Shown piece by piece: positions 19,099 through 31,891 of a stretch of DNA of 64,000 nucleotides. Every line of letters starts with the position of its first letter. Position 1 is the stretch's first letter. The notes below the pieces were generated by a model, which had not been told where the DNA came from, did not search any database, and was given only the letters and a program-made list of their open reading frames with translations. The position numbers and the translations under genes are program-made. Source of the stretch: Pseudarthrobacter sp. NIBRBAC000502772 (GTDB lineage Bacteria; Actinomycetota; Actinomycetes; Actinomycetales; Micrococcaceae); NCBI RefSeq assembly GCF_006517235.1, contig NZ_CP041188.1, forward strand, positions 4,278,001 through 4,342,000, written 5' to 3'.

Positions 19099-19722
19099 GT
19101 GGCCCAGCACCCCGACGGAGAATCCCAACAGCCAGTTGCACCCGCCGGGGCTGCCACGCCCCCTCTGCCGCCGCCGCGGCCCGGGCTGTCCTACGCCGCG
19201 CCGGCGCCCATCGTTGTCATTCCGCCGGCACCGCGGAGCGTCCGCCTGGCGCGGACCTTTTGGCTGCTCAGCTTCGTTGCAGGCCTGGCCGTAGTTGTCG
19301 GTTCATTCCTGACCCGCGACTCACACCTGGAGCGGCTCCGCACTGTGGTGGACCAGATGTCGCCCGGCGGCGGACCTGACGCTGTGACCACATCCGCGGC
19401 CATTGTTTTCTGGGGCAGCCTGGGCGCCCTGCTGCTGGTGATGCTGTTTGAAGCGGCGGCGCTGGCTATTTTCGCAGCGCGCCGCGGCTGGTCCCGCTGG
19501 CTGCTGATCCCGCTGCTGGCCGGGCAAGTGGTGGTCATGGTGGTGGCCGCAGCTTTCCTCGTACCCGACGGCGACGCCGGCAGTTACGTTGTGATGCTCT
19601 GGGGAGCCCAGCTACTCCTCGCGTTCTTCGGCCTGGTGGCGGTTTTTGTGCCGTCGGCGGGCAGGTGGCTCACGGCGCGGATCCAGTCGGCGCAGGTCAG
19701 GCCGGCGCGGACGCGGCAATAA
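19099..19722 (+). CDS. Four-helix hypothetical membrane protein
   Basis: The 207-residue protein has a Pro/Ala-rich N-terminus (PLPPPRPGLSYAAPAPIVV) and four predicted membrane helices between about residues 50 and 195. I do not recognise a named family. The GTG start lies 7 nt after the PLDc_N gene, so the two are probably cotranscribed. It is convergent with the dynamin-like operon; the stops are 9 nt apart with no terminator in between. Confidence 0.7.
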   Translation: MAQHPDGESQQPVAPAGAATPPLPPPRPGLSYAAPAPIVVIPPAPRSVRLARTFWLLSFVAGLAVVVGSFLTRDSHLERLRTVVDQMSPGGGPDAVTTSAAIVFWGSLGALLLVMLFEAAALAIFAARRGWSRWLLIPLLAGQVVVMVVAAAFLVPDGDAGSYVVMLWGAQLLLAFFGLVAVFVPSAGRWLTARIQSAQVRPARTRQ

Positions 19723-19731
19723 GGGCCGACC

Positions 19732-21225
19732 TCAAGCGGACTGCGGGTCGAGTTGCAGGGCCGAGCATTCGGCCACGACGCCCTCACAGCTGCGCATCAC
19801 CACGCGGCAGGCCTCAACGGCTGACCGCTCCGTCAGCGGGTTTTCCGATACCGTCCGCCACCGGTTTAGGAAGCGGCGGGCTTCGGCCAGGACTACGTCC
19901 GGTCCGGCATCCGGAGCCAGCCCCATCCTCAGGGCGGGCGCCGCACCCCAGCCGCCGACCAGCATTTCAGCCTCCGCCGCCAATTCATCACTGAGGGATA
20001 CCCCCGTGGTACGGATCGTGGCGAGCAGGCGGAGCTCACGAAACTCATGGGCGTTGGCCTGAAGGCGTTCCAAGGCTGCGGCCAGGCGGCCGGCCCCCTC
20101 CCTGGGCGCGGTGCGCAGCAAGCTTTCCACTCCCACCAAGGCAGTACGGGCTTTGAGGGCATCCCCGCGGGCCTGGAACTGCCGGGCCACAAGGTGCAGC
20201 AACGGGTCCAACCCGCTGCGCCGGGCCAGTTCATGCGCCAGTGGCGTGGGTTCAGTGAATCCACTCCGAATCAGCACCACGCCCAGGCGTATCCCGAACA
20301 GCCCGAACCGCTCAAGGAGGGAGGCCCGGGCGTCGGCGCCCAGGCTTTGCGGGACACTGGCCCTGATGAACCTGTCCGCCGAGAGCAGCATCCGTTCCCG
20401 GGCCGACCGCTCCATGCCGGCCAGGACCTGCAGGGACTCGAAGTCCGACTGGCGCATGCTGCGTGCGCTTTGCGCCAGCAGCCCGGCCACCGGGACCACC
20501 CCCAACGCCAGCTTCCGCAGGCTGTGGTCCCGGCGGTACCGGTCAGCGATGTCACCTGCGGAGAGCAGCGAATCAATGCGGCCCGCACCGATCTCGTCGG
20601 CGCGGGACAGCACGGCAAGGGCGTTCACGGTTCCCGACCTACCCGCCTCGGTATCCCTGAAGGATTCGAGGAACCGCAGGTCCGAGGCGTGCATGTGGCG
20701 CATGAGGTAAATGATGGCATCAGCCTCGGAGGGCGCGTCCACGGGGATGAGGAAATCGGTGGACCGGGCAGAGACGTCTTCGGACAACGAGGCAATTCCC
20801 GGGGTGTCTATCAGGGTGAGCTCGCGCAGGGCCGGCGAGGGCCACTCCACCACCAGCCGTTCCATGTCCTCGGCGCGGGCGTTGCCCAGGACAAACACCA
20901 GGCGGCCGTCCACGCGCTTCAGCGGCAGGATACGCGGTTCACCGGCGATGGGGTAGGCCGTGATCCGCGGCGTGTGCCCGTAGCGGTACCAGGTCACAAT
21001 CTTTGTGCATTCCCCGGTGTCGGTCGGGGCGATCTCTTCCCCGATGATGGCGTTCAGCAGCGTGGATTTTCCCGCCTTGACCATGCCTGCCACAGCGAGC
21101 CTGAGGGGCTCGGAGAGCCGCCGGGCATAAGTCTCCAATGCCGCAGCCGCAGCGGGGTCGTCCGCATACACAAGCAGGGCGTCCTGGATCAGGTCCGCCA
21201 CTCCTGCGCTGATGGACTCCTTCAT
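19732..21225 (-). CDS. Dynamin-like GTPase, IniC-like
   Basis: This is a 497-residue large GTPase. G1 is GMVKAGKST (about 47-55), G3 is DTPG (about 140) and G4-like is SRAD. The remainder is helical, as in bacterial dynamin-like proteins. Its length and its place directly after a longer dynamin-like gene match mycobacterial IniC (about 490 residues). In mycobacteria IniA and IniC act at the plasma membrane and are induced by cell-wall inhibitors. The ATG overlaps the upstream gene by 4 nt (ATGA). The frame remains open to 22059, but that part is a shadow of the upstream gene. Homology to IniC specifically is inferred from order and size. Confidence 0.82.
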   Translation of the reverse strand: MKESISAGVADLIQDALLVYADDPAAAAALETYARRLSEPLRLAVAGMVKAGKSTLLNAIIGEEIAPTDTGECTKIVTWYRYGHTPRITAYPIAGEPRILPLKRVDGRLVFVLGNARAEDMERLVVEWPSPALRELTLIDTPGIASLSEDVSARSTDFLIPVDAPSEADAIIYLMRHMHASDLRFLESFRDTEAGRSGTVNALAVLSRADEIGAGRIDSLLSAGDIADRYRRDHSLRKLALGVVPVAGLLAQSARSMRQSDFESLQVLAGMERSARERMLLSADRFIRASVPQSLGADARASLLERFGLFGIRLGVVLIRSGFTEPTPLAHELARRSGLDPLLHLVARQFQARGDALKARTALVGVESLLRTAPREGAGRLAAALERLQANAHEFRELRLLATIRTTGVSLSDELAAEAEMLVGGWGAAPALRMGLAPDAGPDVVLAEARRFLNRWRTVSENPLTERSAVEACRVVMRSCEGVVAECSALQLDPQSA

Positions 21226-23261
21226 CTGCCCGCCGCACCCACCGGCGCAGTGCCCACCGACTGGCTCCCCGTCGTCGGACTTCCCGACGCCGGGTTTCCC
21301 ATCGCCGGGTTTCCCATCGCCGGACTTCCCGACGCCGTGCCGCGCCCGGCCGGAGACTTCTCCGCCGAAGACTGCGCGGCCTGCGGCCCCGGGGATTGGG
21401 CCACTTCGGCGGCCACCAGGCCGGCGGCATGGTGCAGGGCGTCCACCTTCTTGAGCTCGGCCTTGATCTCGCGGATGCGAATGTCCTTTTCCAGCGTGTA
21501 GGTGGTGGCTGCCTTCTGGGCCGCCGCCACCGAATCCGCCAGGGAGCGATGGTTTTCGTCCGCGATTTCCGTGAAGTGGTCCCGGGTGGAGCGCTGCACC
21601 AGCCGGAGCCGGTCCTTGAGCTGCTTGCCCACCTGGAACGTGACATCGTCCAGCTGCCGGCGGACCAGCGCCTTGGCTTCGGCCTGCCGGCGCTTCAGCC
21701 GTGCTTCCTTGTCCTCGCGGTACGCCTTGCGGCCCAGCAGCAGGCCCGCGCCCACTGACAAAGGATTGATCAGGGCCATGCCAAAAATCCCGGTCAGGAG
21801 CCCGAACATCAGCACGCCGCCGTAGGATCCGCGCATGCCGATCAGGACCTTCTGCAGGGGGTTGATGTGCCCGTCGTCGAGCCTTGGCATGGTGTCCACC
21901 GGGTCCAACGCGTCGTCGGTGTCCGAGATGTGAAGCACCGGCAGGGCCACTTCGTCCTCTGAAAAATGCTCCGCCACCTGCGCGGCCAGCCACTGCGCGC
22001 GTTCGCTGGTCCACACAAACGTGTCCGAGATCGCGGCGGCGGCACACTCCTCGAGCCACGCGGAAAACTGGGTCCAGGTGGGGCCGGGATCGCCCTGGTC
22101 AATAGCGGCCTCGGCTTCGCGCTGGATGCGCCGCAGACGGTCCCGGAGGTCGTACTCCATGTCCGCGATCAGGTCGCCGATGCCGTCGTTGAGCGTAATC
22201 TGCCACCGGGCGGAACGTTTGCGCAGCTCATCGGCCTGTGACTTCGCCTCCTCCAGCCCTGCAATCATCCGCGGCGTCCCGTGCGGATCCTCAAGCGCTC
22301 CCAGCTCGGACCGCAGGGACAGGCGCAGGTTCTCAGTCACGGAAAGCAAGTCCTGGCTGACGGAGCGCCGTTGCAGCCGTTCCGCCTTGCCCACAATTTC
22401 ATTCCGGAGGTGGCCGATCAACACGGGGAAACCCGACTCGGCGTTGAGTTCGCTGTCCTGCAGGCGTGCAGCCTCCAGCCGGAGATCCGAGGAAACCGCG
22501 AACAGCGGGATGTCCGGCGCCACCTGCGCGAGCTGGGCACGGTCCATGGCCTCCACACGCCGCCAGTCCGGATACAGGTCCGTTTTGGACAGGATGCCCG
22601 CAACGCTCGGGGTGATCCGCATGGCCTGGCGCAGGAACCGCATTTCGGGCTCGGTGTATTCCTGCGAGGCATCTGAAACCAGCAGCATGGCGTCCGCTGT
22701 GGGCAAGGCTGTGAGGGTGGTCAATGTGTGCGAGGAGCCCAGTCCTCCCACACCCGGCGAATCGATGACCGTCAGCCCGCCGGCCAGGACCTTGCGGGGC
22801 AGGAAAACTTCGGCCGCTACCAGCTTCTTGACGTTTCCGGGGTTGCCCCGCTCGGAAACGTAGGCCGCCAGGTCCGCTATGTTGATGGGCTGCCGCTCGA
22901 TTGCGGCGTCGTCGCCGGGCTCTGTGCCGGCTTTGGGCAGCAGGATGGCGGCGGACGCGGGTTCCCCGTTGCGGACCACGGTGGGCACGGAGGTGGCGAT
23001 GTCGTCGTCGACAGGGCACACCGGGGCGTTCACCAGGGCGTTGATAAGTTTGCTTTTTCCTTGCTTGAATTCCCCCACCACGATCACGCGGATACTCGGA
23101 TCCTTCAGCCGTCGCAGGGTCTGGTCCAGGCGTTTCCGCAGGTCCGCGCGGTCCCCTGTCCCCACCAGCTCGATGCCCTGCTCCACCAGCAACGCCAGCT
23201 GGCCGGCGTTCATCGGCACCGGCGCATGTCCAGGGCCTCCCGGTCGTTGCGATTCAGCCAT
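21222..23261 (-). CDS. Dynamin-like GTPase, IniA-like
   Basis: The 679-residue dynamin-family GTPase has G1 GEFKQGKSKL (63-72), G3 DSPGVGGLGS (167-176) and G4 SKTD (225-228). A long helical stalk follows, then a hydrophobic paddle-like stretch (about 471-510, GGVLMFGLLTGIFGMALINP) for membrane insertion, more coiled coil, and a Gly/Ser/Pro tail with GNPAMGNPASG repeats. The layout matches mycobacterial IniA (about 640 residues), a membrane-remodelling protein of the isoniazid-induced operon. It is translationally coupled to the IniC-like gene and 111 nt downstream of the IniB-like gene, with a hairpin between. Confidence 0.85.
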   Translation of the reverse strand: MAESQRPGGPGHAPVPMNAGQLALLVEQGIELVGTGDRADLRKRLDQTLRRLKDPSIRVIVVGEFKQGKSKLINALVNAPVCPVDDDIATSVPTVVRNGEPASAAILLPKAGTEPGDDAAIERQPINIADLAAYVSERGNPGNVKKLVAAEVFLPRKVLAGGLTVIDSPGVGGLGSSHTLTTLTALPTADAMLLVSDASQEYTEPEMRFLRQAMRITPSVAGILSKTDLYPDWRRVEAMDRAQLAQVAPDIPLFAVSSDLRLEAARLQDSELNAESGFPVLIGHLRNEIVGKAERLQRRSVSQDLLSVTENLRLSLRSELGALEDPHGTPRMIAGLEEAKSQADELRKRSARWQITLNDGIGDLIADMEYDLRDRLRRIQREAEAAIDQGDPGPTWTQFSAWLEECAAAAISDTFVWTSERAQWLAAQVAEHFSEDEVALPVLHISDTDDALDPVDTMPRLDDGHINPLQKVLIGMRGSYGGVLMFGLLTGIFGMALINPLSVGAGLLLGRKAYREDKEARLKRRQAEAKALVRRQLDDVTFQVGKQLKDRLRLVQRSTRDHFTEIADENHRSLADSVAAAQKAATTYTLEKDIRIREIKAELKKVDALHHAAGLVAAEVAQSPGPQAAQSSAEKSPAGRGTASGSPAMGNPAMGNPASGSPTTGSQSVGTAPVGAAGR

Positions 23262-23314
23262 AATCTGTCCTTTGCAGCAGGGGTGCGGGTGGGGCGGGGG
23301 ATAATCCGCGAAGA

Positions 23315-23347
23315 GCCCGGCAGGAGGTCGATGGCCTCCTGCCGGGC
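23315..23347 (-). promoter_or_regulatory. Hairpin between the IniB-like and IniA-like genes
   Basis: GCCCGGCAGGAGG (23315-23327) pairs perfectly with CCTCCTGCCGGGC (23335-23347), leaving a 7-nt loop. It lies 25 nt after the IniB-like stop and has no T-tract. It is probably a partial terminator or a processing/stability element that makes the repeat protein more abundant than the GTPases. Confidence 0.5.
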
Positions 23348-23372
23348 GCTCCCGGTACCCGGAACTTGATGT

Positions 23373-24530
23373 TTATAGGCTGATCTCCGAATCTTCGACC
23401 GCGACGTCGGTGTCCACAGCCACGTCAGTGTTCGTCGAGTTGTCCTCGGTGGAGTTGTCCTGGAAAGAATCCTCAACCACAACCTCAACCGGGTTGAAGG
23501 AATCAACCACCTCCACCTCGGTGGTCTCCGCCTGCGAGTTGTCGTTGAAGGAGTCCTCAACCGCAACCTCGGTGTTGGTGGTGTTATCCGAGTTGTCCTG
23601 GAAGGAATCCTCAATCGCAACATCGGTGGTGGAGTTGTCTTCGGTGGAGTTGTCCTCGGTGGAGTTGTCTTCGATGGAGTTGTCCGAGTTGTCGTTGACT
23701 ACGAGGGAGTTGTCCTCGGTGGAGTTATCGGAGTTGTCCTGGAAGGAATCCTCAATCTTCACCGAGTTATCCTCCGAGTTATCCACGGAGTTATCCGAGT
23801 TGTCCGAGTTATCCGAATTATCGGAGTTGTCCGAGTTGTCGTTGAACGAATCAGCGACATCAATGTCAACGTCGGTGTTGAACGAATCTGCCACATCCAG
23901 ATCGCGGTTGCCGATGTTGACGTCGCCGCCGGCGGTGATCGAGTTGTCCGTGGAATTGTCCGTGGTGTTGTCCGTGTTGTACGAATCGGTGGTGTTGTAG
24001 GAGTCCCGGACGTTGTTGTCGTCTCCGGCAGCCAGGGCCTTATCACCGGATGCGATGACAGCCTCGTTGTCGAACCACTGGTTCACGTCGCCGTCGGCCC
24101 AGATGTTCTGGTTGACCGACTGGTCCGTGATCGTGTCCCGGTCATCCACCGTTGAGGTGTAGGAGTAGTTGTTCACCACGTGGTGCAGCTGCTGGACGGC
24201 ATGGGCGTGATCGTCATGGTGGTCGTGCCCCGGAGTGTGTCCAGAACCGCCGCCTCCAGGAGGCGGGGTGTGGCCGGCGCCGCCGATGCCTCCGGTCCAT
24301 GAGGTGTTCCCGCCGGTGTTGTACTCCCGGTCGAAGGAAGAAGCGTTGACAGTGATGGGTGCGTAGTCCAGGACAACCGGCATAGCGGCGTCAACATCGG
24401 CGGAGCAGACTCCGCGCAGGCCGGCACCCTCGAGTGAACGCTCCGGATCGTGCAGGAACTCCTGGGCAGCGGCGGGGTTGTTGAACAGGCCCATGAGGAA
24501 CTGAACGAGCTGGTTTGCGAGTGTAGGCAT
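23373..24530 (-). CDS. IniB N-terminal domain protein with Asp-Asn-Ser repeats
   Basis: In this 385-residue protein the first 60 residues (ANQLVQFLMGLFNNPAAAQE and a following helical segment with DPERSLEGAGLRGV) resemble the N-terminal domain of mycobacterial IniB. A Gly/His linker follows (GHTPGHDHHDDHAHA). The rest is extreme low complexity: ASGDKALAAGDDNNV and ITAGGDVNIGNRDL read like solenoid strands, then dozens of DNS, EDNST and VEDSFNDNS units run to the C-terminus. It is very acidic, has no Cys and no classical signal peptide. Mycobacterial IniB is also repetitive (Gly/Ala-rich) and linked to the envelope. GAGGA lies upstream of the ATG at 24530. Confidence 0.8.
   Translation of the reverse strand: MPTLANQLVQFLMGLFNNPAAAQEFLHDPERSLEGAGLRGVCSADVDAAMPVVLDYAPITVNASSFDREYNTGGNTSWTGGIGGAGHTPPPGGGGSGHTPGHDHHDDHAHAVQQLHHVVNNYSYTSTVDDRDTITDQSVNQNIWADGDVNQWFDNEAVIASGDKALAAGDDNNVRDSYNTTDSYNTDNTTDNSTDNSITAGGDVNIGNRDLDVADSFNTDVDIDVADSFNDNSDNSDNSDNSDNSDNSVDNSEDNSVKIEDSFQDNSDNSTEDNSLVVNDNSDNSIEDNSTEDNSTEDNSTTDVAIEDSFQDNSDNTTNTEVAVEDSFNDNSQAETTEVEVVDSFNPVEVVVEDSFQDNSTEDNSTNTDVAVDTDVAVEDSEISL
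23405..23850 (-). repeat. Degenerate DNA repeat encoding DNS units
   Basis: Imperfect 9- to 18-bp units such as GAGTTGTCCTCGGTG and GAGTTATCCGAGTTGTC recur along the plus strand and encode DNS and EDNST repeats. Copy number is likely to vary among strains. Spacing is irregular and units are contiguous, so this is not a CRISPR array. Confidence 0.8.
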
Positions 24531-24596
24531 TGGATGGTCCTCAAATCATCTCGGAGTTGTGGATCGCCAGGCCTCGGTGCCGGGCTTAAATCAAAC

Positions 24597-26750
24597 CTAA
24601 GGTCCTTCGTAGGGGCCGGACATCGGGTTGTGTCCCCGTACCCGGATGCCCCGCATTAGGGGTTTGCCTGTTTCGTGGCTAGGGGCAGCAGTGGCTCCGT
24701 CCTGGCCCGGATGATCTGCAGTTAGCGCCAGCCTCAGGCGGACCAACAGATCGGAGCGGTTTTCGGCCCCAAGCCTCCGCCGCATCCTGGCAATGTGATG
24801 TTCAGCGGTCCGGGGGGAAATGTAGATGGCTTCGCCGATTTCCCGGTACGTCTTCCCTTCCAGGACCAACCGCGCCACTTCCTTTTCGCGTTCGCTGAGC
24901 CCCGAGGCGTCAGGATGCGCGCCATGGTTGTTCTCGGCGGCGCCGCGGCGTACTTCCGGTGACGGCCCGGCGGGTGGCCCGGTGGTTCCACTCTGCGGGT
25001 GGAGGTCCCTGGCGCAGGCAAGGAGCCGCATCATGTCCCTGCGCTCGTCTGCCTGCGCGGCCGCATGTCCTGCCAGCCGGGCCCCTTCCCATGGCATGCC
25101 CACCACTTTCAGTCCCCGGGCTGCGTTCTCCACATCCGTCGCCTGGAACCGGCCGGCCAGGACGCTGACCCAGGCCTTGCCTGCCGCGGCGAACACAGTG
25201 GCCATGTGACTGTATTCCGAGGCCCGCACCAGCGCTGCTGCGTGCGGGGCAAGGTCGGCCGGGCTCTTGTTCAGCAGGGCAGCCTGGACCGCCGCCCAGT
25301 GAAGCGGGACGGCCCACAGGGGCGGCTCCCCCAGCTTGGTCAGCAGGACCCACGCTTCATCCAGATAATGCGCGACGCGCCGGGTCTCCCGCAACCGGGC
25401 GGCAGCAATCATCAGTTCGCCCCACGGCAGCAGGCTGTAAAGGTCGACGGCTGTGTGCAGCATCGCTTCGCGGGCGCGCTCCCAGGCCATCACCAGGTCA
25501 TGGACGTCGCCGCTGCGCCGCGCAAGGCCCACTTCCAGGGCGGCGCACATGAACTCGTCCCTGGGCACCAGCGGCCAGTGGTTGGCTTTGGAGGCTTCGT
25601 TGATGGCCAGCCGTGCTTCGCCCGGATCGTCCTGCTGCATGGCCGACCATGCCTGCAAGAGGTGGAGCCGTGGCTTGGCGGCGTCACCGCCCTGCCTCGC
25701 TGTGACGGCGGAGCGGATGATGGTGTCCGCTACGTGGGATTCACCGCTGTGGAGGGCCACTAACGCGGCCAACGCTCCAGGGGTGTCCGGAAGGGGCAGC
25801 GCTGAACCGGACGCATTGAGCATGTCTGAAGCATGGATCAGCAGGGGAAGGCCCTTGTGTGGATCCCGCTCCATCGACTCCATCACGCCCTTGCCCGTTT
25901 GCGAAAGCGCCACCGCCAGTAATGTGGGCGACACCGGTGCCGACCCGGCGGGAAAGGCCTCTTCCGCACCTGCCCGGTCGCCGCTGCCGATCATGGCCAC
26001 CGCGGCAAGCGGGGCGGATCGGCCCATGTTCGCCGGACCAAGCCAGGCATAGAGGTCGGCACTGCGGACCAGCAGCCCGCGCTGTGCCCAGACGGAAGCA
26101 GCAACATCCACGCCAAGTCTGACATCCGGCGGATCAGAGCTCACCAGGAGCCCGTCAATAATCCGGCCGGCGGCGTCAAGGTCACCCGTAGCGGCTGCGG
26201 CCTGGGCGCGGCGGGCAGCGATGCGCAGTTCGTTCGCCCCTGCCAGCAGCGCTTCGCTGTACAGCTGCACGGCCAGACCGGGGTTGAGCTGCAGCGCTTT
26301 GTCCGCTGCGGCTTCGAGTTCGGCGGCGACCCTCGGGTCCGCCAGTCCGCCCCTCGCCAGCTCGCGGGCAAGGTCGCCGAAGGGCTGGCCCTCGGCCGAA
26401 ACAAAACCGACGAGTTCCCGCTGCAATGCATGCACACGGGCTGTGGGCGTGCCGTTCAGGAGCGCGTGTTGCGCGGGGCCAACGACTGTCCCGTCAGTAA
26501 GCAGCAGGCCGGAGGCCTCGGCGCGGTTTACCACGGCGTCCAGGCCCGGACCGTCAGGGCCTTCCAGCTTGTGCGCCAGCTCACCGGGCAGCGGACCGGG
26601 CAAGGTGAACCCCACGGACAGCGCCAGCAGGAGTTCACGGACTGCCGCATTCTCGCCCCGCAACTGCTGTGCCATATCAGCGGCTCCGGCGGGAGCCGAC
26701 GTCCCTGCCTCGTGCAGTTCCCGTTCGGGCTGCGTATGATTGGCGGCCAT
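24597..26750 (-). CDS. LuxR-type transcriptional regulator, IniR-like
   Basis: The 717-residue regulator has a C-terminal LuxR helix-turn-helix (about residues 617-671: LSEREKEVARLVLEGKTYRE then ISPRTAEHHIARMRRRLG). The preceding 550 residues are Ala/Leu-rich helical repeats like the TPR-type sensory part of LAL regulators. No Walker A motif is visible, so the N-terminal ATPase module of full LAL proteins and of mycobacterial IniR appears absent. It lies 3 nt after the Hsp70-like stop and 66 nt before iniB-like. In Mycobacterium the LuxR-type IniR controls iniBAC, so control of this operon is the natural inference. A 46-residue tail follows the HTH. Confidence 0.82.
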   Translation of the reverse strand: MAANHTQPERELHEAGTSAPAGAADMAQQLRGENAAVRELLLALSVGFTLPGPLPGELAHKLEGPDGPGLDAVVNRAEASGLLLTDGTVVGPAQHALLNGTPTARVHALQRELVGFVSAEGQPFGDLARELARGGLADPRVAAELEAAADKALQLNPGLAVQLYSEALLAGANELRIAARRAQAAAATGDLDAAGRIIDGLLVSSDPPDVRLGVDVAASVWAQRGLLVRSADLYAWLGPANMGRSAPLAAVAMIGSGDRAGAEEAFPAGSAPVSPTLLAVALSQTGKGVMESMERDPHKGLPLLIHASDMLNASGSALPLPDTPGALAALVALHSGESHVADTIIRSAVTARQGGDAAKPRLHLLQAWSAMQQDDPGEARLAINEASKANHWPLVPRDEFMCAALEVGLARRSGDVHDLVMAWERAREAMLHTAVDLYSLLPWGELMIAAARLRETRRVAHYLDEAWVLLTKLGEPPLWAVPLHWAAVQAALLNKSPADLAPHAAALVRASEYSHMATVFAAAGKAWVSVLAGRFQATDVENAARGLKVVGMPWEGARLAGHAAAQADERRDMMRLLACARDLHPQSGTTGPPAGPSPEVRRGAAENNHGAHPDASGLSEREKEVARLVLEGKTYREIGEAIYISPRTAEHHIARMRRRLGAENRSDLLVRLRLALTADHPGQDGATAAPSHETGKPLMRGIRVRGHNPMSGPYEGP

Positions 26751-26753
26751 GCC

Positions 26754-28853
26754 TCAGACCGCCGGCTCGGTAGTTGGGACAGGATCCGTGGTGGGGGACG
26801 GTTCCGCGAACGGGTCGGGCTCCGGCGCAGGGTCCGTCGTCGGATCGGGCTCCGGCGCAGGTGCCGACGACGGCTCTGGAGCCGGGCCCATGGTCGGATC
26901 CGGCGCAGGGTCAGTAGTCGGATCCGGAGCCGGGTCAGTGGTCGGATTGGTGGTCGGATCCGGCGCAGGGTCAGTAGTCGGATCCGGAGCCGGGTCAGTG
27001 GTCGGATTGGTGGTCGGATCCGGCGCAGGGTCAGTGGTAGGACCCGGGGCCGGGTCAGTGGTCGGATCCGGTACAGGATCGACGGGCAATGGGACCACGT
27101 CCGGCGGCGGATCCGTCGTCGGGCTGGTCACTGTACCCGGGGTGGAGCCTCCGGAACCCTGTGCAGGCTCACCAGAAGTGCCCGTCCCGGCAGCGGCTCC
27201 GCCGGCTGCTGGTTGGCCTGCTTCGGTAAGTGGCCTGCTGGTGGACGAGGCAGCAATGTCCAGTCCCGTGGAACTGGCCGGCGCGCCGCTGTCCTGCAGC
27301 TGGGCGCTGGCTTCAATCCCCTGCACGGGGAGCTGCGCCGCGCCTGCTCCTGCTACTGCCGCGCCTGCTCCTGCCGCGGGGCCACCGGAGCCAGGTCCGC
27401 CGGTTCCGTCAGGAGGAGCAGCGCTTGGCGTGTCCTTCGCCGCATCCGCCGACGGGGCGAACATCGCCGAGAGGCTGCCGAGTCCGTCCGGGCCCTGGGC
27501 TGCCGTCGCCGTCAGCCCGGTAAAGAGCGCCGCTACCGCTGCTACCGCAGTCAGCCGCACGGTCGGACGTGGCCCGTGCGCGCCGCCCTTGCGCCCGCCA
27601 GCATGGGCACCGGCGGCATGGGCGCCGGCGGCGAGTGCTGCAGCACCGGCGTCGGCATGCCGGGACCAGCTGGCTCGTCGGCCGGCAGTCCCATGATGCC
27701 CGTCAGCCTGCGTGAGCACGACGGCGTCGGCCAGCTGTGCGGTCATGGCAGCGGGCTGCGCGGCGCCCTCCGGCTGAGCGCGAAGGGCGGCAACCGCCGC
27801 GCCGAGGCAGATGGATGACTTCGGATCGGCGTCCACGGCGATCGGCCGGTCCAGCTGCTCCGAAATCAGCTGTGCCACCAGGGGAATGCGCGATGAGCCG
27901 CCGATGAGAAGCACCGCGGACAGGTCGTCCGGGGTGAGCCCCAGGTCCTGCAGGGAACGCTCCAGGGCGTCCACTGTTTCCCGGATGGGCTCCCTGATCA
28001 TCGCCTCGAAGTCGGACCGGACCAGCCGCACCTGCTGCTGGAATCCCGGCAGGAGCACCGAAATGCTCGCCTCGCTGTCCGCGGACAACGCCTCCTTGGC
28101 TTCCACACACTCCCGCCGCAGGCGGGACAGGGCCGCCAGCGCTCCGGGCGCCGACGGGTCAAGATTGGCCAGGCCCTGCCCGGCGTGATCGGCAACGTAC
28201 CGCAGGACGGCTGCGTCGAAGTCGGCGCCGCCCAGCCCCTCGATCCCTTCGGGCCGGCCCAGCAGTTCAAAGTGGCCGGCGTCCGTCTTCTTCAGGACGG
28301 CGGTGTCAAAGGTCCCGCCACCGAGGTCGTAGACGGCGATGGTACTGCCAGCCTCCACCCGCACCTGGGCGGCGTAGTGCAGCGCCGCCGCTTCCGGTTC
28401 GCTGATCAGCGTGACCTTTGTCAGGTCTTTTGAGGCAAGGGCAGCGAGGACGAGCTGCGTTCGGTGCGCACCCCAGGAGGCAGGGTGGGAAAGGATAATG
28501 TCCGACGGCGGCGCTCCCTCGCGTTCTTCAGCCCGGTCTGCGACCCATCGGGCCATAGTGGCGAAGACGTCCTCAGCAGGGAGGGAAAGAGTGCCGACGG
28601 CAATGGGGACGTCGTCTCCGACGCGCCTTTTGAACTCCCGCACCACCCGCTCCGGGGAGTCAAGGCCGCGGCGCTCGGCCGCCTCCCCCACCAGGATGGG
28701 GCCTTCCTCGGGGTAGTAAACCACCGAAGGCACAGCCGTTCCGCGGAGCCCCAGCGGCAGGCTCTCCGGAACACGTGAAGCGTCGTGATTGATTCGAACT
28801 ATGGCGGCGGCGGTGAAACTGGTCCCGACGTCAAGGGCGAGAACATAGTTCAT
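26754..28853 (-). CDS. Hsp70-like ATPase with membrane anchor and DPTT-repeat tail
   Basis: Residues 1-360 of the 699 form an actin/Hsp70 ATPase: DVGTSFT (8-14), DLGGGTFD (176-183) and GGSSRIP (318-324). There is no DnaK substrate-binding domain. A His/Gly/Ala linker leads to one membrane helix (about 431-452, VRLTAVAAVAALFTGLTATA). About 245 residues follow, ending in repeats of DPAPDPTT, so the tail should be outside the cell. The frame is open to 28916, but MNYVLALDVG at 28853 aligns with the family start and has GAGG 5 nt upstream. It heads the operon with the IniR-like gene. A cytoplasmic ATPase coupled to an external tail suggests envelope sensing or scaffolding; this is inferred. Confidence 0.85.
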   Translation of the reverse strand: MNYVLALDVGTSFTAAAIVRINHDASRVPESLPLGLRGTAVPSVVYYPEEGPILVGEAAERRGLDSPERVVREFKRRVGDDVPIAVGTLSLPAEDVFATMARWVADRAEEREGAPPSDIILSHPASWGAHRTQLVLAALASKDLTKVTLISEPEAAALHYAAQVRVEAGSTIAVYDLGGGTFDTAVLKKTDAGHFELLGRPEGIEGLGGADFDAAVLRYVADHAGQGLANLDPSAPGALAALSRLRRECVEAKEALSADSEASISVLLPGFQQQVRLVRSDFEAMIREPIRETVDALERSLQDLGLTPDDLSAVLLIGGSSRIPLVAQLISEQLDRPIAVDADPKSSICLGAAVAALRAQPEGAAQPAAMTAQLADAVVLTQADGHHGTAGRRASWSRHADAGAAALAAGAHAAGAHAGGRKGGAHGPRPTVRLTAVAAVAALFTGLTATAAQGPDGLGSLSAMFAPSADAAKDTPSAAPPDGTGGPGSGGPAAGAGAAVAGAGAAQLPVQGIEASAQLQDSGAPASSTGLDIAASSTSRPLTEAGQPAAGGAAAGTGTSGEPAQGSGGSTPGTVTSPTTDPPPDVVPLPVDPVPDPTTDPAPGPTTDPAPDPTTNPTTDPAPDPTTDPAPDPTTNPTTDPAPDPTTDPAPDPTMGPAPEPSSAPAPEPDPTTDPAPEPDPFAEPSPTTDPVPTTEPAV
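26893..27060 (-). repeat. 60-bp tandem repeats in the Hsp70-like gene
   Basis: A 60-bp unit starting GTCGGATCCGGCGCAGGGTC occurs at 26893-26952, exactly again at 26953-27012, and in diverged form after 27013. It encodes 20-residue blocks of the DPTT tail. Exact identity implies recent duplication or homogenisation. Confidence 0.9.
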
Positions 28854-29009
28854 GGGCACCTCGGCAAAAAACGCAGCTAGCTGTCTGCGAGCTTCATCAC
28901 TGACAACTCCCACCAAGGTAGCATCACCGTCTGCGGGGCAACACCCTTATTCATACATCGATTGGCGTATCAGTCGACCGCTGCCAAGGACAGCTGGAGA
29001 AACCCCAGT
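28854..29009 (-). promoter_or_regulatory. Probable promoter region of the Hsp70/Ini-like operon
   Basis: This 156-bp gap separates the Hsp70-like start from the ccsB stop. It holds the palindrome CAGCTAGCTG (28874-28883), flanked by CGCAG and CTGCG. On the minus strand are TTGTCA- and TTGGCA-like hexamers that could be -35 elements. I cannot assign a definite promoter. Confidence 0.3.
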
Positions 29010-30134
29010 TCAGAGGCCCGAATAGGAGTGCAGACCGTTAAAGAACTGGTTGACGATGGTGAAATTGAAGACCACGCAGAGGTAGCCGACGATCGACAGC
29101 CACGCGGCTCGGGTGCCGGTCCAGCCACGCGTGGCGCGGGCGTGCAGGTAGCCCGCGTAGACCACCCAGATCACGAAGGTCCAGACTTCCTTGGTGTCCC
29201 AGCCCCAGAACCGGCCCCAGGCTTTTTCAGCCCAGATGGCACCGAACATGAGGGTGAAGGTCCAGCCGATGAAGGCGATGGCGTTGATCCGGTAGGACAG
29301 GTTTTCCAGGCTCAGTGCCGAGGGAACCAGCCGCATAAAGCCAAGCTTGTCAGCACCACCGGCAGCCACCGTCTTTTGCCGGTGGGACTGGACCAGCTGC
29401 AGGGCGGACATGGCGAACGTGAGGGTGAAGAGTGCGGAGGAGAGCACCGCGATGGAGACGTGGATGATCAGCCAGTAGCTCTGCAGCGCAGGGACCAGGT
29501 GGCCCACGGGGGTCCAGTAAGCCACCGAGGCGGCCACCAGCATGATGATGGCCAGGCCCACCACAAACGTGCCCAGGAACCGCAGGTCGCGGCGGATCAG
29601 CACCAGCAGGAAAACCGCCACGGCCACAAACGCGCCGGTGGTCAGGAACTCGTACATGTTGCCCCACGGCACCCGGCCTGCACCCACGGCACGCGTGATG
29701 ACGCCGGCGGCATGGATCAGCACGCCGAGAACGGTGAGGGCAACGGCGACCCGCGCCGGAACGCGGCGTTCCGCCGCATAGCGCATATCGGCGTCGGCCG
29801 TCTGCCCGGCCCCGGAAGCGTCGCCGCCCCGCTTGGCCACGGACGACGACGGCCGCTCGACCCGTCCCACCGGTCCGGCCAGGTGCGAGTCAACCCTGTC
29901 CGTTGCCACACTGTCGGCTGCCGCGGCTGAACCAGCAGACGCACCGGCGCCGGCCATCGCGGGCACCCTGGTCCCGGCAGCCTCGGCCGCCTTCAGGTCT
30001 ATGGCGCGCAGCGCCCTGCTGCTCTTCGCGAGGTCCCAGGCGAAGGCGATGAAGGCCACGGTGTACGTGCCGGCTGCGAGCAGCATAAACAGCTCGCTGT
30101 ACTGGCCCATGGTTTCGTTGATGGCGAACGGCAT
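29010..30134 (-). CDS. ccsB: Cytochrome c biogenesis protein CcsB
   Basis: The 374-residue polytopic protein carries the haem-handling tryptophan-rich motif of system II cytochrome c maturation (WGRFWGWDTKEVWTFVIW) with flanking His residues (LIIHVSIAV, YLHAR). It works with ResB to export haem and ligate it to apocytochromes. An Ala/Gly/Ser-rich cytoplasmic loop (about residues 55-110) is longer than usual. The ATG overlaps the resB stop by 1 nt (TAATG). It is last in the operon histidine phosphatase, tlpA, ccdA, resB, ccsB. Confidence 0.94.
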   Translation of the reverse strand: MPFAINETMGQYSELFMLLAAGTYTVAFIAFAWDLAKSSRALRAIDLKAAEAAGTRVPAMAGAGASAGSAAAADSVATDRVDSHLAGPVGRVERPSSSVAKRGGDASGAGQTADADMRYAAERRVPARVAVALTVLGVLIHAAGVITRAVGAGRVPWGNMYEFLTTGAFVAVAVFLLVLIRRDLRFLGTFVVGLAIIMLVAASVAYWTPVGHLVPALQSYWLIIHVSIAVLSSALFTLTFAMSALQLVQSHRQKTVAAGGADKLGFMRLVPSALSLENLSYRINAIAFIGWTFTLMFGAIWAEKAWGRFWGWDTKEVWTFVIWVVYAGYLHARATRGWTGTRAAWLSIVGYLCVVFNFTIVNQFFNGLHSYSGL

Positions 30135-31891
30135 TACTGGTCCTTTTTCGGCCCGGTGGGGCCCGCTGGGGTGGTGACAGAGTCTGCGCCATTATCGCCC
30201 TGGCGGCTGGGAGTTTGCTGGGTGACGCTGGAATCGGAATCGTCAGCAGATTCGACGGAATCGGAATCCGCAAGCTGCCACTCGTCGGACAGCAGCTTCC
30301 TGACGGCAACCGCTTCCGCGGCGAGCCGGTGGTCCTCACCGCGGGCAAGCAGGCCATACTCCACCATGGTGCGGCCGTCCTCGTGCGTCCCGGTCCGCAC
30401 CCAGACGCGGCGCCGGTTCACGTAGAGCGAGACGATCAGGCCGCCCACGGCCAGCAGCGCGAAAATGAGGGCGTAGAGCTGGCCCGGGTTGTGGTGGATG
30501 TCCACGCCCACGTACCGCTTCACGCTGTCAAAGCTGATGCTGCCCTTGCCGTCCGGCAGGGTGTAGGTGCTGCCCGGAGCCAGGGTGATGCCGCCGGCGT
30601 CCAGGTTGCGGGCGTTCAGCGGCGTGAGGTCACTGACGTCGAGTTCAAAGACGTTCTGCGGCGAGCCGGCGTCCAGGCCAAGGTCCCCGAAGTAGGAGTT
30701 CAGGGTCAGCCGCGGGTTGAACAGGTCCGGATCGCCGCTGAAGGACACCCCCTCCTCGGTGACAAACGCCGTGGGCAGGAAAAACCCCACGAAGCCCAGC
30801 TGTTCGGGCCGGGCGTCGGGGACCTTGATCACCAGGGAGGAGTAGTAGTTGTCACCCTGGAGCTTGGCCACCACGGGACCCTGCATGGCCACGTTGCCGG
30901 CGCCGTCGCGGATGGTCACCACGGGCGCGTAGCCGTTGCCCGTGAGGTAGATGCTGGTGCCGCCGAGGGTCACGGGATCGTTGACCTTCAGGACTTCCTG
31001 CTTGGCGGGCGAGTCCGGGGTTTCCCGGGTGGTGACTTCGGCGTTGAAGTCGATGGGCTGGCCGATTTTGCCTGGTGATTCGCGGTCAAACAAGACGTCG
31101 AATTTGTCCAGCTGGATGGAGTACGGCTGCAGCTGGCTGGACTGGAAGTTCGTGCCGGGGGTGAACTGGTCGTAGCCCACCAGCGTGTTCACGAAGGTGT
31201 CGCCCTCCACCAGGATGCGCTGGCCGCTGTAGCCGAACAGGCCGCCCACGGCCACGGACACCAGCACACCGATCAGCGACGTGTGGAACACCAGGTTCCC
31301 TACCTCCTTGGCGAAGCCGCGTTCGGCGCCCAAAGACGGCCGCGCGCCGTCGTCGTCCCTCACGTCAACGCGGTAGCCGCGCTTCCTGAGCACGCCGGCG
31401 GCACTGCGGATGGCGTCCGACGCCGGGAGGCCGGCGTCGGCGGGAACCACCAGGGTGCCGTACTCGGGGAGGCGGGAGAGACGTTTGGGGGTCCGCGGCG
31501 GCTGGGAGCGCATGGCCCTGTAGTGGGCGATGGCGCGCGGGACCACGCAGCCGATCAGCGAGATGAACAGCAGGATGTAGATGGCCGAGAACCAGGCCGA
31601 CGAGTAGACGTCGTAGAGCTGGAGGGTGTCCAGCAGCTTCCCGTAGTCCGGGTTGTCCTTGATGTACTGCGTCACGATGGACGGGTTGGCCGGGCGCTGC
31701 GGGAAGAGCGAACCGGGCACCGCGGCGACAGCCAGGAGCAGCAGCAGGAACAGCGCCGTGCGCATGCTGGTCAGCTGGGTCCAGGCCCAACGCAGCATCT
31801 CCACCGGCCCCAGGACTGGCAGCGCCGCCTCGGTTTTGGCGGCGGCAACGGGTGCCGGGGACTTTTTGTTTTCTTTCACGCGCTCGCTCAT
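30134..31891 (-). CDS. resB: Cytochrome c biogenesis protein ResB
   Basis: This is a 585-residue ResB/Ccs1 family protein. Three N-terminal membrane helices (about 45-65, 95-115 and 205-225) precede a large external domain (QRILVEGDTFVN through YVGVDIHHNPGQ), then a last helix and a cytoplasmic tail rich in Asp and Ser (ADSDSVESADDSDSSV). It forms the haem-ligation complex with CcsB. I start it at the ATG at 31891, which overlaps the ccdA stop (TGATG). The frame runs open to 32245, but that is a shadow of ccdA. Confidence 0.93.
   Translation of the reverse strand: MSERVKENKKSPAPVAAAKTEAALPVLGPVEMLRWAWTQLTSMRTALFLLLLLAVAAVPGSLFPQRPANPSIVTQYIKDNPDYGKLLDTLQLYDVYSSAWFSAIYILLFISLIGCVVPRAIAHYRAMRSQPPRTPKRLSRLPEYGTLVVPADAGLPASDAIRSAAGVLRKRGYRVDVRDDDGARPSLGAERGFAKEVGNLVFHTSLIGVLVSVAVGGLFGYSGQRILVEGDTFVNTLVGYDQFTPGTNFQSSQLQPYSIQLDKFDVLFDRESPGKIGQPIDFNAEVTTRETPDSPAKQEVLKVNDPVTLGGTSIYLTGNGYAPVVTIRDGAGNVAMQGPVVAKLQGDNYYSSLVIKVPDARPEQLGFVGFFLPTAFVTEEGVSFSGDPDLFNPRLTLNSYFGDLGLDAGSPQNVFELDVSDLTPLNARNLDAGGITLAPGSTYTLPDGKGSISFDSVKRYVGVDIHHNPGQLYALIFALLAVGGLIVSLYVNRRRVWVRTGTHEDGRTMVEYGLLARGEDHRLAAEAVAVRKLLSDEWQLADSDSVESADDSDSSVTQQTPSRQGDNGADSVTTPAGPTGPKKDQ

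Follow-up and report, generated by a model that had tools for sequence, protein, structure and literature searches.

A predicted membrane Hsp70-like protein linked to the IniA-IniC dynamin pair is a candidate envelope-stress sensor in an iniBAC-type cluster of Pseudarthrobacter

The iniBAC genes of mycobacteria are strongly induced by drugs, and the question addressed here is by which route wall damage is reported to the regulator IniR. We analyzed a 64,000-nucleotide (nt) stretch of the genome of Pseudarthrobacter sp. NIBRBAC000502772 (assembly GCF_006517235.1, contig NZ_CP041188.1, positions 4,278,001 to 4,342,000), called the window below, in which the gene for an Hsp70-like membrane protein is followed, 5' to 3' on the minus strand, by the genes for a LuxR-type regulator, IniB, IniA and IniC (Table 1). 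From their sequences, we took these five genes for an actinobacterial counterpart of iniBAC, the cell-envelope stress cluster of mycobacteria. Because an Hsp70-like protein accompanies IniA-IniC in every evaluable pair of a phylum-wide draw of genomes, we believe that it is a direct candidate for the missing wall-damage sensor toward IniR, or else for a third part of the dynamin machinery. We give an even chance to the reading that a receptor-like Hsp70 reports the state of the wall to IniR, to the dynamins or to both within an envelope-stress module of the iniBAC type. With a candidate operator and a hairpin that may set gene dosage, the module can be tested in harmless soil actinobacteria.

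Compared with mycobacterial iniBAC and IniR, as covered in parts of two papers (PMC5760070, PMC6715688), the window has a homologous IniB N-terminus, IniA and IniC and an IniR-type regulator. CCCCTA repeats lie upstream of iniB, as in presumed Mycobacterium (the genus with IniR above the curated cut-off; the naming is our inference). The window differs in that its regulator has no AAA domain, its Hsp70 is catalytically intact by its motifs, hsp70 and the regulator gene precede iniB in its own orientation instead of being divergent from it, and there is only one gene with an IniB domain. No second IniB domain above the cut-off was found in the host genome (4.8 Mb, one contig), which holds one further Hsp70 match, a DnaK-like one. 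With DnaK and other Hsp70 chaperones, the window protein shares the fold and catalytic motifs of the nucleotide-binding domain, but it differs in the absence of a substrate-binding domain, the predicted membrane helix and outer tail, and its separate place in the tree. Actinobacterial Hsp70s without a substrate-binding domain also occur near GTPases in the GAP1-N2 GTPase conflict systems (PMC7159879); there the GTPases belong to another family, and a look for the words dynamin and IniB in the main text of that paper found neither.

A preliminary description made from the window alone had placed five minus-strand genes here with gaps of 3, 66, 111 and -4 nt, and recomputing the gaps gave the same values. 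The likeness of the N-terminal domain to IniB, set beforehand as a point that could be refuted, was confirmed by a match of 66.6 bits to NF038175 (cut-off 40). The IniA homologue matched the solved IniA structure 6j72 with an E value of 6.6e-140 over residues 23-618, both the iniA and the iniC product carry the Dynamin_N domain, and the iniC product matched the IniC genes of relatives, for example with an E value of 1e-109 at locus L089. Neighborhood comparison showed that the gene order B-A-C recurs in relatives, and the three homologues and the module are indeed present outside mycobacteria. The IniB domain was found in 40 of 393 genomes of the class. In the host family (Micrococcaceae), 25 of 245 genomes had IniA, spread over 4 of 32 genera; within the host genus it occurred in 7 of the 18 listed genomes, and this patchiness suggests loss or transfer. 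Very long open reading frames of about 1540-1580 amino acids (aa) with an IniB N-terminal domain adjoin further Hsp70-like genes in L093/L121, and two tandem iniB genes of nearly equal length and score lie in L116:8872-11890.

To place the Hsp70-like gene, we surveyed at least one neighborhood per genome bearing IniA or IniB, plus some IniR matches, so that the survey was anchored on IniA and IniB and not on Hsp70. After the removal of two repeat fetches (L149, L093) and a genome's second IniB place (L092), 68 distinct loci remained, 65 of them with IniA, and a non-DnaK Hsp70-like gene lay in the same stretch at 64 of these 65; the sole exception, L114, is truncated by a contig end. The preliminary description had regarded the Hsp70 as a novelty of this operon, which is too narrow in view of these counts, the presumed mycobacteria included. 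The Hsp70 gene was directly upstream of the regulator gene on the same strand in 51 of the 62 loci with both, at a distance of at most 10 nt in 46, although these gaps are approximate because the regulator start was picked by rule. In the presumed mycobacteria, the Hsp70-IniR pair is divergent from iniB in most loci, many have a second Hsp70, and in L090, L133 and L135 the only Hsp70 sits beyond iniC. Ten loci (L089, L124-L126, L128-L130, L132, L136 and L138) have two Hsp70-like genes, one with iniR and the other after iniR or iniC; both copies in the two-Hsp70 loci of presumed mycobacteria have degenerate ATP motifs, and L126 additionally holds a piece of a probable DnaK.

The IniA profile was also run against a phylum-wide draw of 396 genomes, in which 28 genomes had a match and 22 places scored at least 500 bits. 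Nineteen of these 22 full-length IniA places were IniA-IniC pairs on an unbroken stretch, all 19 with an Hsp70-like gene. A further pair of lower score (G192, 200 bits) also has one, so that an Hsp70 was near 20 of the 20 evaluable pairs, 13 of which overlap the survey while 7 are new. A membrane helix was predicted in 19 of these 20 Hsp70s, the exception being L079. The remaining three places were one at a contig edge and two with a lone IniA, without IniC or Hsp70. No Hsp70 was found near any of ten lone dynamins (2 full-length IniA and 8 weaker matches of 128-149 bits), two of which (L246, L250) lie on contigs of only 5-6 kb. In the opposite direction, a reciprocal Hsp70 scan gave 80 loci among the matches listed, mostly with ordinary DnaK-like proteins; IniA and IniC were nearby in 7 of the best 8 of these 80 (L155-L162, without L160) and in none of the other 72. 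Neither a regulator nor IniB was found near the pair in L157, L158, L159, L162, L240, L243 and L244. Because pairs without a regulator keep the Hsp70, it is tied first to the dynamin pair, and to IniR where IniR is present. These results suggest, at the level of sequence, that the two dynamin-like proteins have a constant but little-noticed companion in the Hsp70-like membrane protein. Boot 2017 (PMC5760070) mentions in one sentence that M. smegmatis has a dnaK-like gene next to iniR, and the searched part of the open-licence literature yielded no follow-up of it.

By prediction, the protein itself is built like a receptor. MalT with MalK offers a parallel, in which an ATPase at the membrane is tied to a MalT-like activator; another is given by receptor kinases that span the membrane and carry propeller ectodomains, where outer domains vary and the inner one is constant. 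The Hsp70-like protein differs from both, its inner domain being an ATPase of the Hsp70 type instead of an ABC ATPase or a kinase. The claim of a membrane Hsp70 with a predicted outer tail was borne out by the PF00012 match (149 bits, cut-off 20.6), one predicted helix and a disordered Pro/Thr-rich tail. In the AlphaFold2 (AF2) model, residues 1-360 are ordered and the remainder is mostly disordered except for the helix, and the 50 best solved folds listed were DnaK and other Hsp70s. No substrate-binding domain was found in the protein: the HSP70 match stops at profile position 372 of 599, and mostly disorder follows after residue 362. Among relatives, a clear membrane helix after the ATPase domain was seen in 68 of 77 non-DnaK survey Hsp70s, and the part after the helix varies. 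It is Pro/Thr-rich disorder in the window and a Ser/Thr-rich tail in presumed mycobacteria, while in L158, L159 and L244 the helix is followed by beta-propeller repeats, in L148 and L156 by a BON domain, and in L147, L236, L237 and L240 by a common segment that contains the motif HVHFFF; most Hsp70s without a recognized outer domain have disordered tails. Pfam over 65 Hsp70-like proteins gave PD40 in 3, WD40 in 1 and BON in 2. A tree of 70 selected rows set the Hsp70 domains of the iniAC loci apart from DnaK, with two exceptions taken up below. The outer part thus appears to be interchangeable between relatives, as in receptors, if the predicted topology is right, and a receptor-type role is backed by this variation together with the linkage to both IniR and the dynamins.

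The sequence upstream of iniB contains repeated CCCCTA boxes. CCCCTA was the top enriched hexamer upstream of iniB in 3 of the 4 families tested, all four having enough sequences for the count, with 64 seen against 6.3 expected (28 sequences), 8 against 0.3 (5 sequences) and 105 against 5.7 (41 sequences); L087 was additionally left out of this count, and the figures are not probabilities because related sequences are not independent. None of 65 iniA genes has CCCCTA within the 300 nt that precede it. The host family has 0.24 CCCCTA per sequence upstream of hsp70 versus 2.29 upstream of iniB, and the presumed mycobacterial family, where hsp70 and iniB are divergent, has 2.09 upstream of hsp70. 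A box cluster, defined as at least two boxes (CCCCTA or CCCTAA, either strand) within 60 nt, was present at 54 of the 67 IniA-IniC loci whose stretch holds a regulator. Among the loci whose stretch holds none the figure was 3 of 13, and for lone dynamins 0 of 10. As for the three clustered loci without a regulator, L237 has one shortly beyond its end (L146), L121 stops short of the place known from L150 of the same genus, and the genome of L087 has regulators on another contig (L086). Three of the 10 loci lacking both boxes and regulator (L094, L155, L235) are cut short by stretch ends. A direct CCCCTA pair with a spacing of 15-18 nt occurs once in the 4.8-Mb host genome, at this locus, and the reversed control pattern occurs 6 times. 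The inverted pair CCCCTA-N10-40-TAGGGG was also considered as an operator and rejected, with 3 places in the host genome, none in the window, and fewer than its reversed control. We propose that IniR binds the CCCCTA boxes, which would be candidate sites shared with mycobacteria; a word search of the main text of Boot 2017 (PMC5760070) found no IniR motif or binding site.

A hairpin follows iniB in the window. Among the iniB-iniA gaps of at least 50 nt, 43 of 49 had a stem score of at least 9, compared with 1.0% of 490 shuffles and with 1 of 49 control stretches of the same length taken from before iniB. This count left out six gaps shorter than 50 nt, L101, L102 and L111 (gap closed by the start-codon rule), and loci where iniB and iniA lie on opposite strands. 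Since the stem sequences differ between lineages, it is the structure and not the sequence that is kept. The hairpin has no T run and was not listed by a simple terminator scan, and Rfam at gathering scores gave no match in 19500-30300. RNA sequencing mentioned in Boot 2017 (PMC5760070), a source consulted in part, suggests more IniB than IniA and IniC, and an element like this hairpin would explain such an output. The five adjacent genes are confirmed, but the word operon in the preliminary description is not. A single five-gene transcript is less likely, since iniB is preceded by operator-like boxes and followed by the hairpin, which suggest more than one transcript level, and the locus is probably two transcription units.

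Starting from the observed domains, linkage, boxes and hairpin, we propose the following mechanism. The single-pass protein would have its Hsp70 ATPase domain in the cytoplasm and its tail outside, would act like a receptor and would be produced together with the IniR-type activator. A disturbance of the wall or membrane would change the ATPase or assembly state of the Hsp70-like protein, and this change may be relayed on the cytoplasmic side to IniR, to the dynamins IniA and IniC, or to both. IniR would then bind the boxes upstream of iniB and switch on iniB-iniA-iniC, the hairpin may hold the output of IniB above that of both dynamins, and IniA-IniC, judged by homology to IniA, would remodel or reseal the membrane. 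The earlier proposal that the Hsp70 senses or anchors to the wall and signals to the regulator or organizes the GTPases may be kept as a proposal. In a wider form, which we put forward tentatively, the protein would represent a new class of one-pass receptors with an Hsp70 ATPase output (degenerate in some lineages) and interchangeable outer domains, the hidden sensor of iniBAC across Actinomycetota, mycobacteria included, controlling IniR and IniA-IniC.

Several observations weigh against a receptor that reports to IniR and the dynamins. In the seven loci named above in which no regulator was found near the pair, the Hsp70 cannot act through a neighboring IniR. An Hsp70 of the family in L160 (Pseudonocardia) has no IniA in its 21-kb stretch, and the Hsp70s of L170 and L181 (Lentzea and Crossiella), also without IniA in the stretch, fall inside the iniAC group of the tree. 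The nucleotide-binding motifs are degenerate in the mycobacterial copies. The outer tail in the window is of low complexity, without a recognizable sensor fold. Nine of the 77 survey copies have no clear membrane helix, among them two borderline cases (L094, L122), a cut gene (L109) and the fragment of a probable DnaK (L126). An inner ATPase and an outer tail lead one to expect more positive charge before the helix than after it, and this was found in only 46 of 68 copies, with equal charge in 8. On the side of transcription, CCCCTA was outside the top eight hexamers in one family (f81, 10 sequences), 13 of the 67 regulator-bearing loci have no box cluster, and a sigma-70-type promoter was looked for at the locus and not found.

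The Hsp70 may instead serve the dynamins and not IniR, as a membrane-anchored, ATP-driven partner that recruits, assembles or disassembles IniA-IniC coats, with IniR and IniB as later additions in some lineages. The firmest link of the Hsp70 is with the IniA-IniC pair, even where no regulator or IniB was found nearby, and in L162, L240 and L244 the Hsp70 gene lies downstream of the dynamin genes on the same strand. We consider this explanation rather unlikely, in view of the many loci in which the Hsp70 gene directly precedes the regulator gene, the scarcity in the host family of the iniB-unit boxes before hsp70, and the missing substrate-binding domain. In DnaK, the YFND loop is the contact for DnaJ, and this loop is not conserved in the window protein. 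It seems very improbable to us that the protein is an ordinary accessory chaperone that aids folding or export of the repetitive IniB or of the large dynamins under stress: it has a true Hsp70-fold ATPase domain, but besides having no substrate-binding domain it carries a membrane helix and a predicted outer tail, it scores 144 bits against a DnaK equivalog cut-off of 822.55, and Hsp70s of this kind are present where IniB was not found (e.g. L144, L240, L243).

A further explanation concerns the regulator, which the preliminary description had called IniR-like without an ATPase domain. This is supported, since its match to NF038181 (IniR) begins at profile position 184, reaches 826 of 827 and scores 384 bits, short of the 750 required of an equivalog, and neither an AAA match nor a Walker A motif was found in it. 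The Hsp70 ATPase could then have replaced the AAA ATPase that was lost by IniR in the host lineage. All 13 adjacent host-family pairs without AAA, the window included, keep an intact Hsp70 phosphate motif, and 22 pairs, mostly of presumed Mycobacterium, have the reverse pattern of a kept AAA and a degenerate Hsp70 motif. However, among the 51 adjacent pairs, 12 keep both ATPases and 4 have neither (L084, L085 and L097, which have no AAA, and L095, whose AAA match lacks a Walker A motif), and this mixed four-way table does not support a strict swap, which we rejected as a rule. AAA was lost only once or twice in the host family (p = 0.29 for one event in the approximately unbiased, AU, test). 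We hold a swap to be improbable. Apparent losses in the large tree are artefacts in L113 (a two-frame regulator) and L114 (contig end), and possibly in L122; three short regulator pieces (L113, L123, L086) were excluded, and L113 and L114 were dropped from the AU-test tree. The AF2 model of the regulator (predicted local distance difference test, pLDDT, 85.8) shows an all-helical repeat domain, a loose linker and a helix-turn-helix (HTH). A likeness of the IniR repeat domain to MalT comes from Boot 2017 (PMC5760070, consulted in part); it was not confirmed here, since Foldseek gave only general matches of the tetratricopeptide repeat (TPR) type among the 50 best listed, and a profile search against solved structures gave chiefly matches to HTH and P-loop proteins. 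The regulator is 33 codons longer (717 vs 684 aa) than in L099, a relative with 95% identity, and its extended 3' end (window 24597-24700) overlaps the operator-like boxes.

Table 1. Features of the iniBAC-type locus (window coordinates)
Feature	Position	Strand	Remarks
hsp70-like membrane protein gene	26754..28853	-	699 aa; start ATG 28853; PF00012 149 bits
Hsp70 nucleotide-binding domain	27780..28853	-	residues about 1-358; motifs DVGTS, YDLGGGTFD, GGSSRIP kept
Single predicted membrane helix	27498..27554	-	residues about 434-452 (AF2 helix 436-452); positive charge before helix
Predicted outer tail, Pro/Thr-rich (DPTT-type), disordered	26754..27497	-	sequence and AF2 model
IniR-like regulator without N-terminal ATPase	24597..26750	-	717 aa; helical repeat domain and LuxR-type HTH; NF038181
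LuxR/GerE HTH	24741..24902	-	PF00196, residues 617-670
CCCCTA box 1, candidate IniR site	24680..24685	-	155 nt before iniB, inside regulator 3' end
CCCCTA box 2, candidate IniR site	24657..24662	-	132 nt before iniB, inside regulator 3' end
CCCCTA box 3, candidate IniR site	24610..24615	-	85 nt before iniB, inside regulator 3' end
iniB homologue	23373..24530	-	385 aa; N-terminal IniB domain and DNS-repeat region; NF038175
IniB N-terminal domain	24366..24512	-	residues 7-55; NF038175
Hairpin after iniB	23315..23347	-	13-bp perfect stem GCCCGGCAGGAGG / CCTCCTGCCGGGC, loop 7; z -4.03
iniA homologue, dynamin-like GTPase	21222..23261	-	679 aa; PDB 6j72, PF00350
iniC homologue, dynamin-like GTPase	19732..21225	-	497 aa; PF00350 and match to IniC genes of relatives

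The iniC gene starts at 21225 and overlaps iniA in an ATGA. Upstream of the locus lie genes for cytochrome c assembly (ccsA-like) and a ResB family protein; downstream lie a DUF4229 gene and, on the opposite strand, a gene for a UbiA-family prenyltransferase. For hsp70, an upstream TTG at 28916 is a possible alternative start. The region before this gene (28854-28960) carries a genus-wide footprint, TGTAGCAA ... TGCTAC-TTG, an inverted pair unlike CCCCTA that is partly decayed in the window. Outside the iniAC loci, the related Hsp70 in Lentzea (L170:43-6486) adjoins an NB-ARC/TPR protein and a SARP-type NB-ARC regulator, and that in Crossiella (L181:5926-11734) adjoins an ATPase of the FtsK/SpoIIIE family. 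From these neighborhoods, the pairing of such Hsp70s with STAND regulators may be wider.

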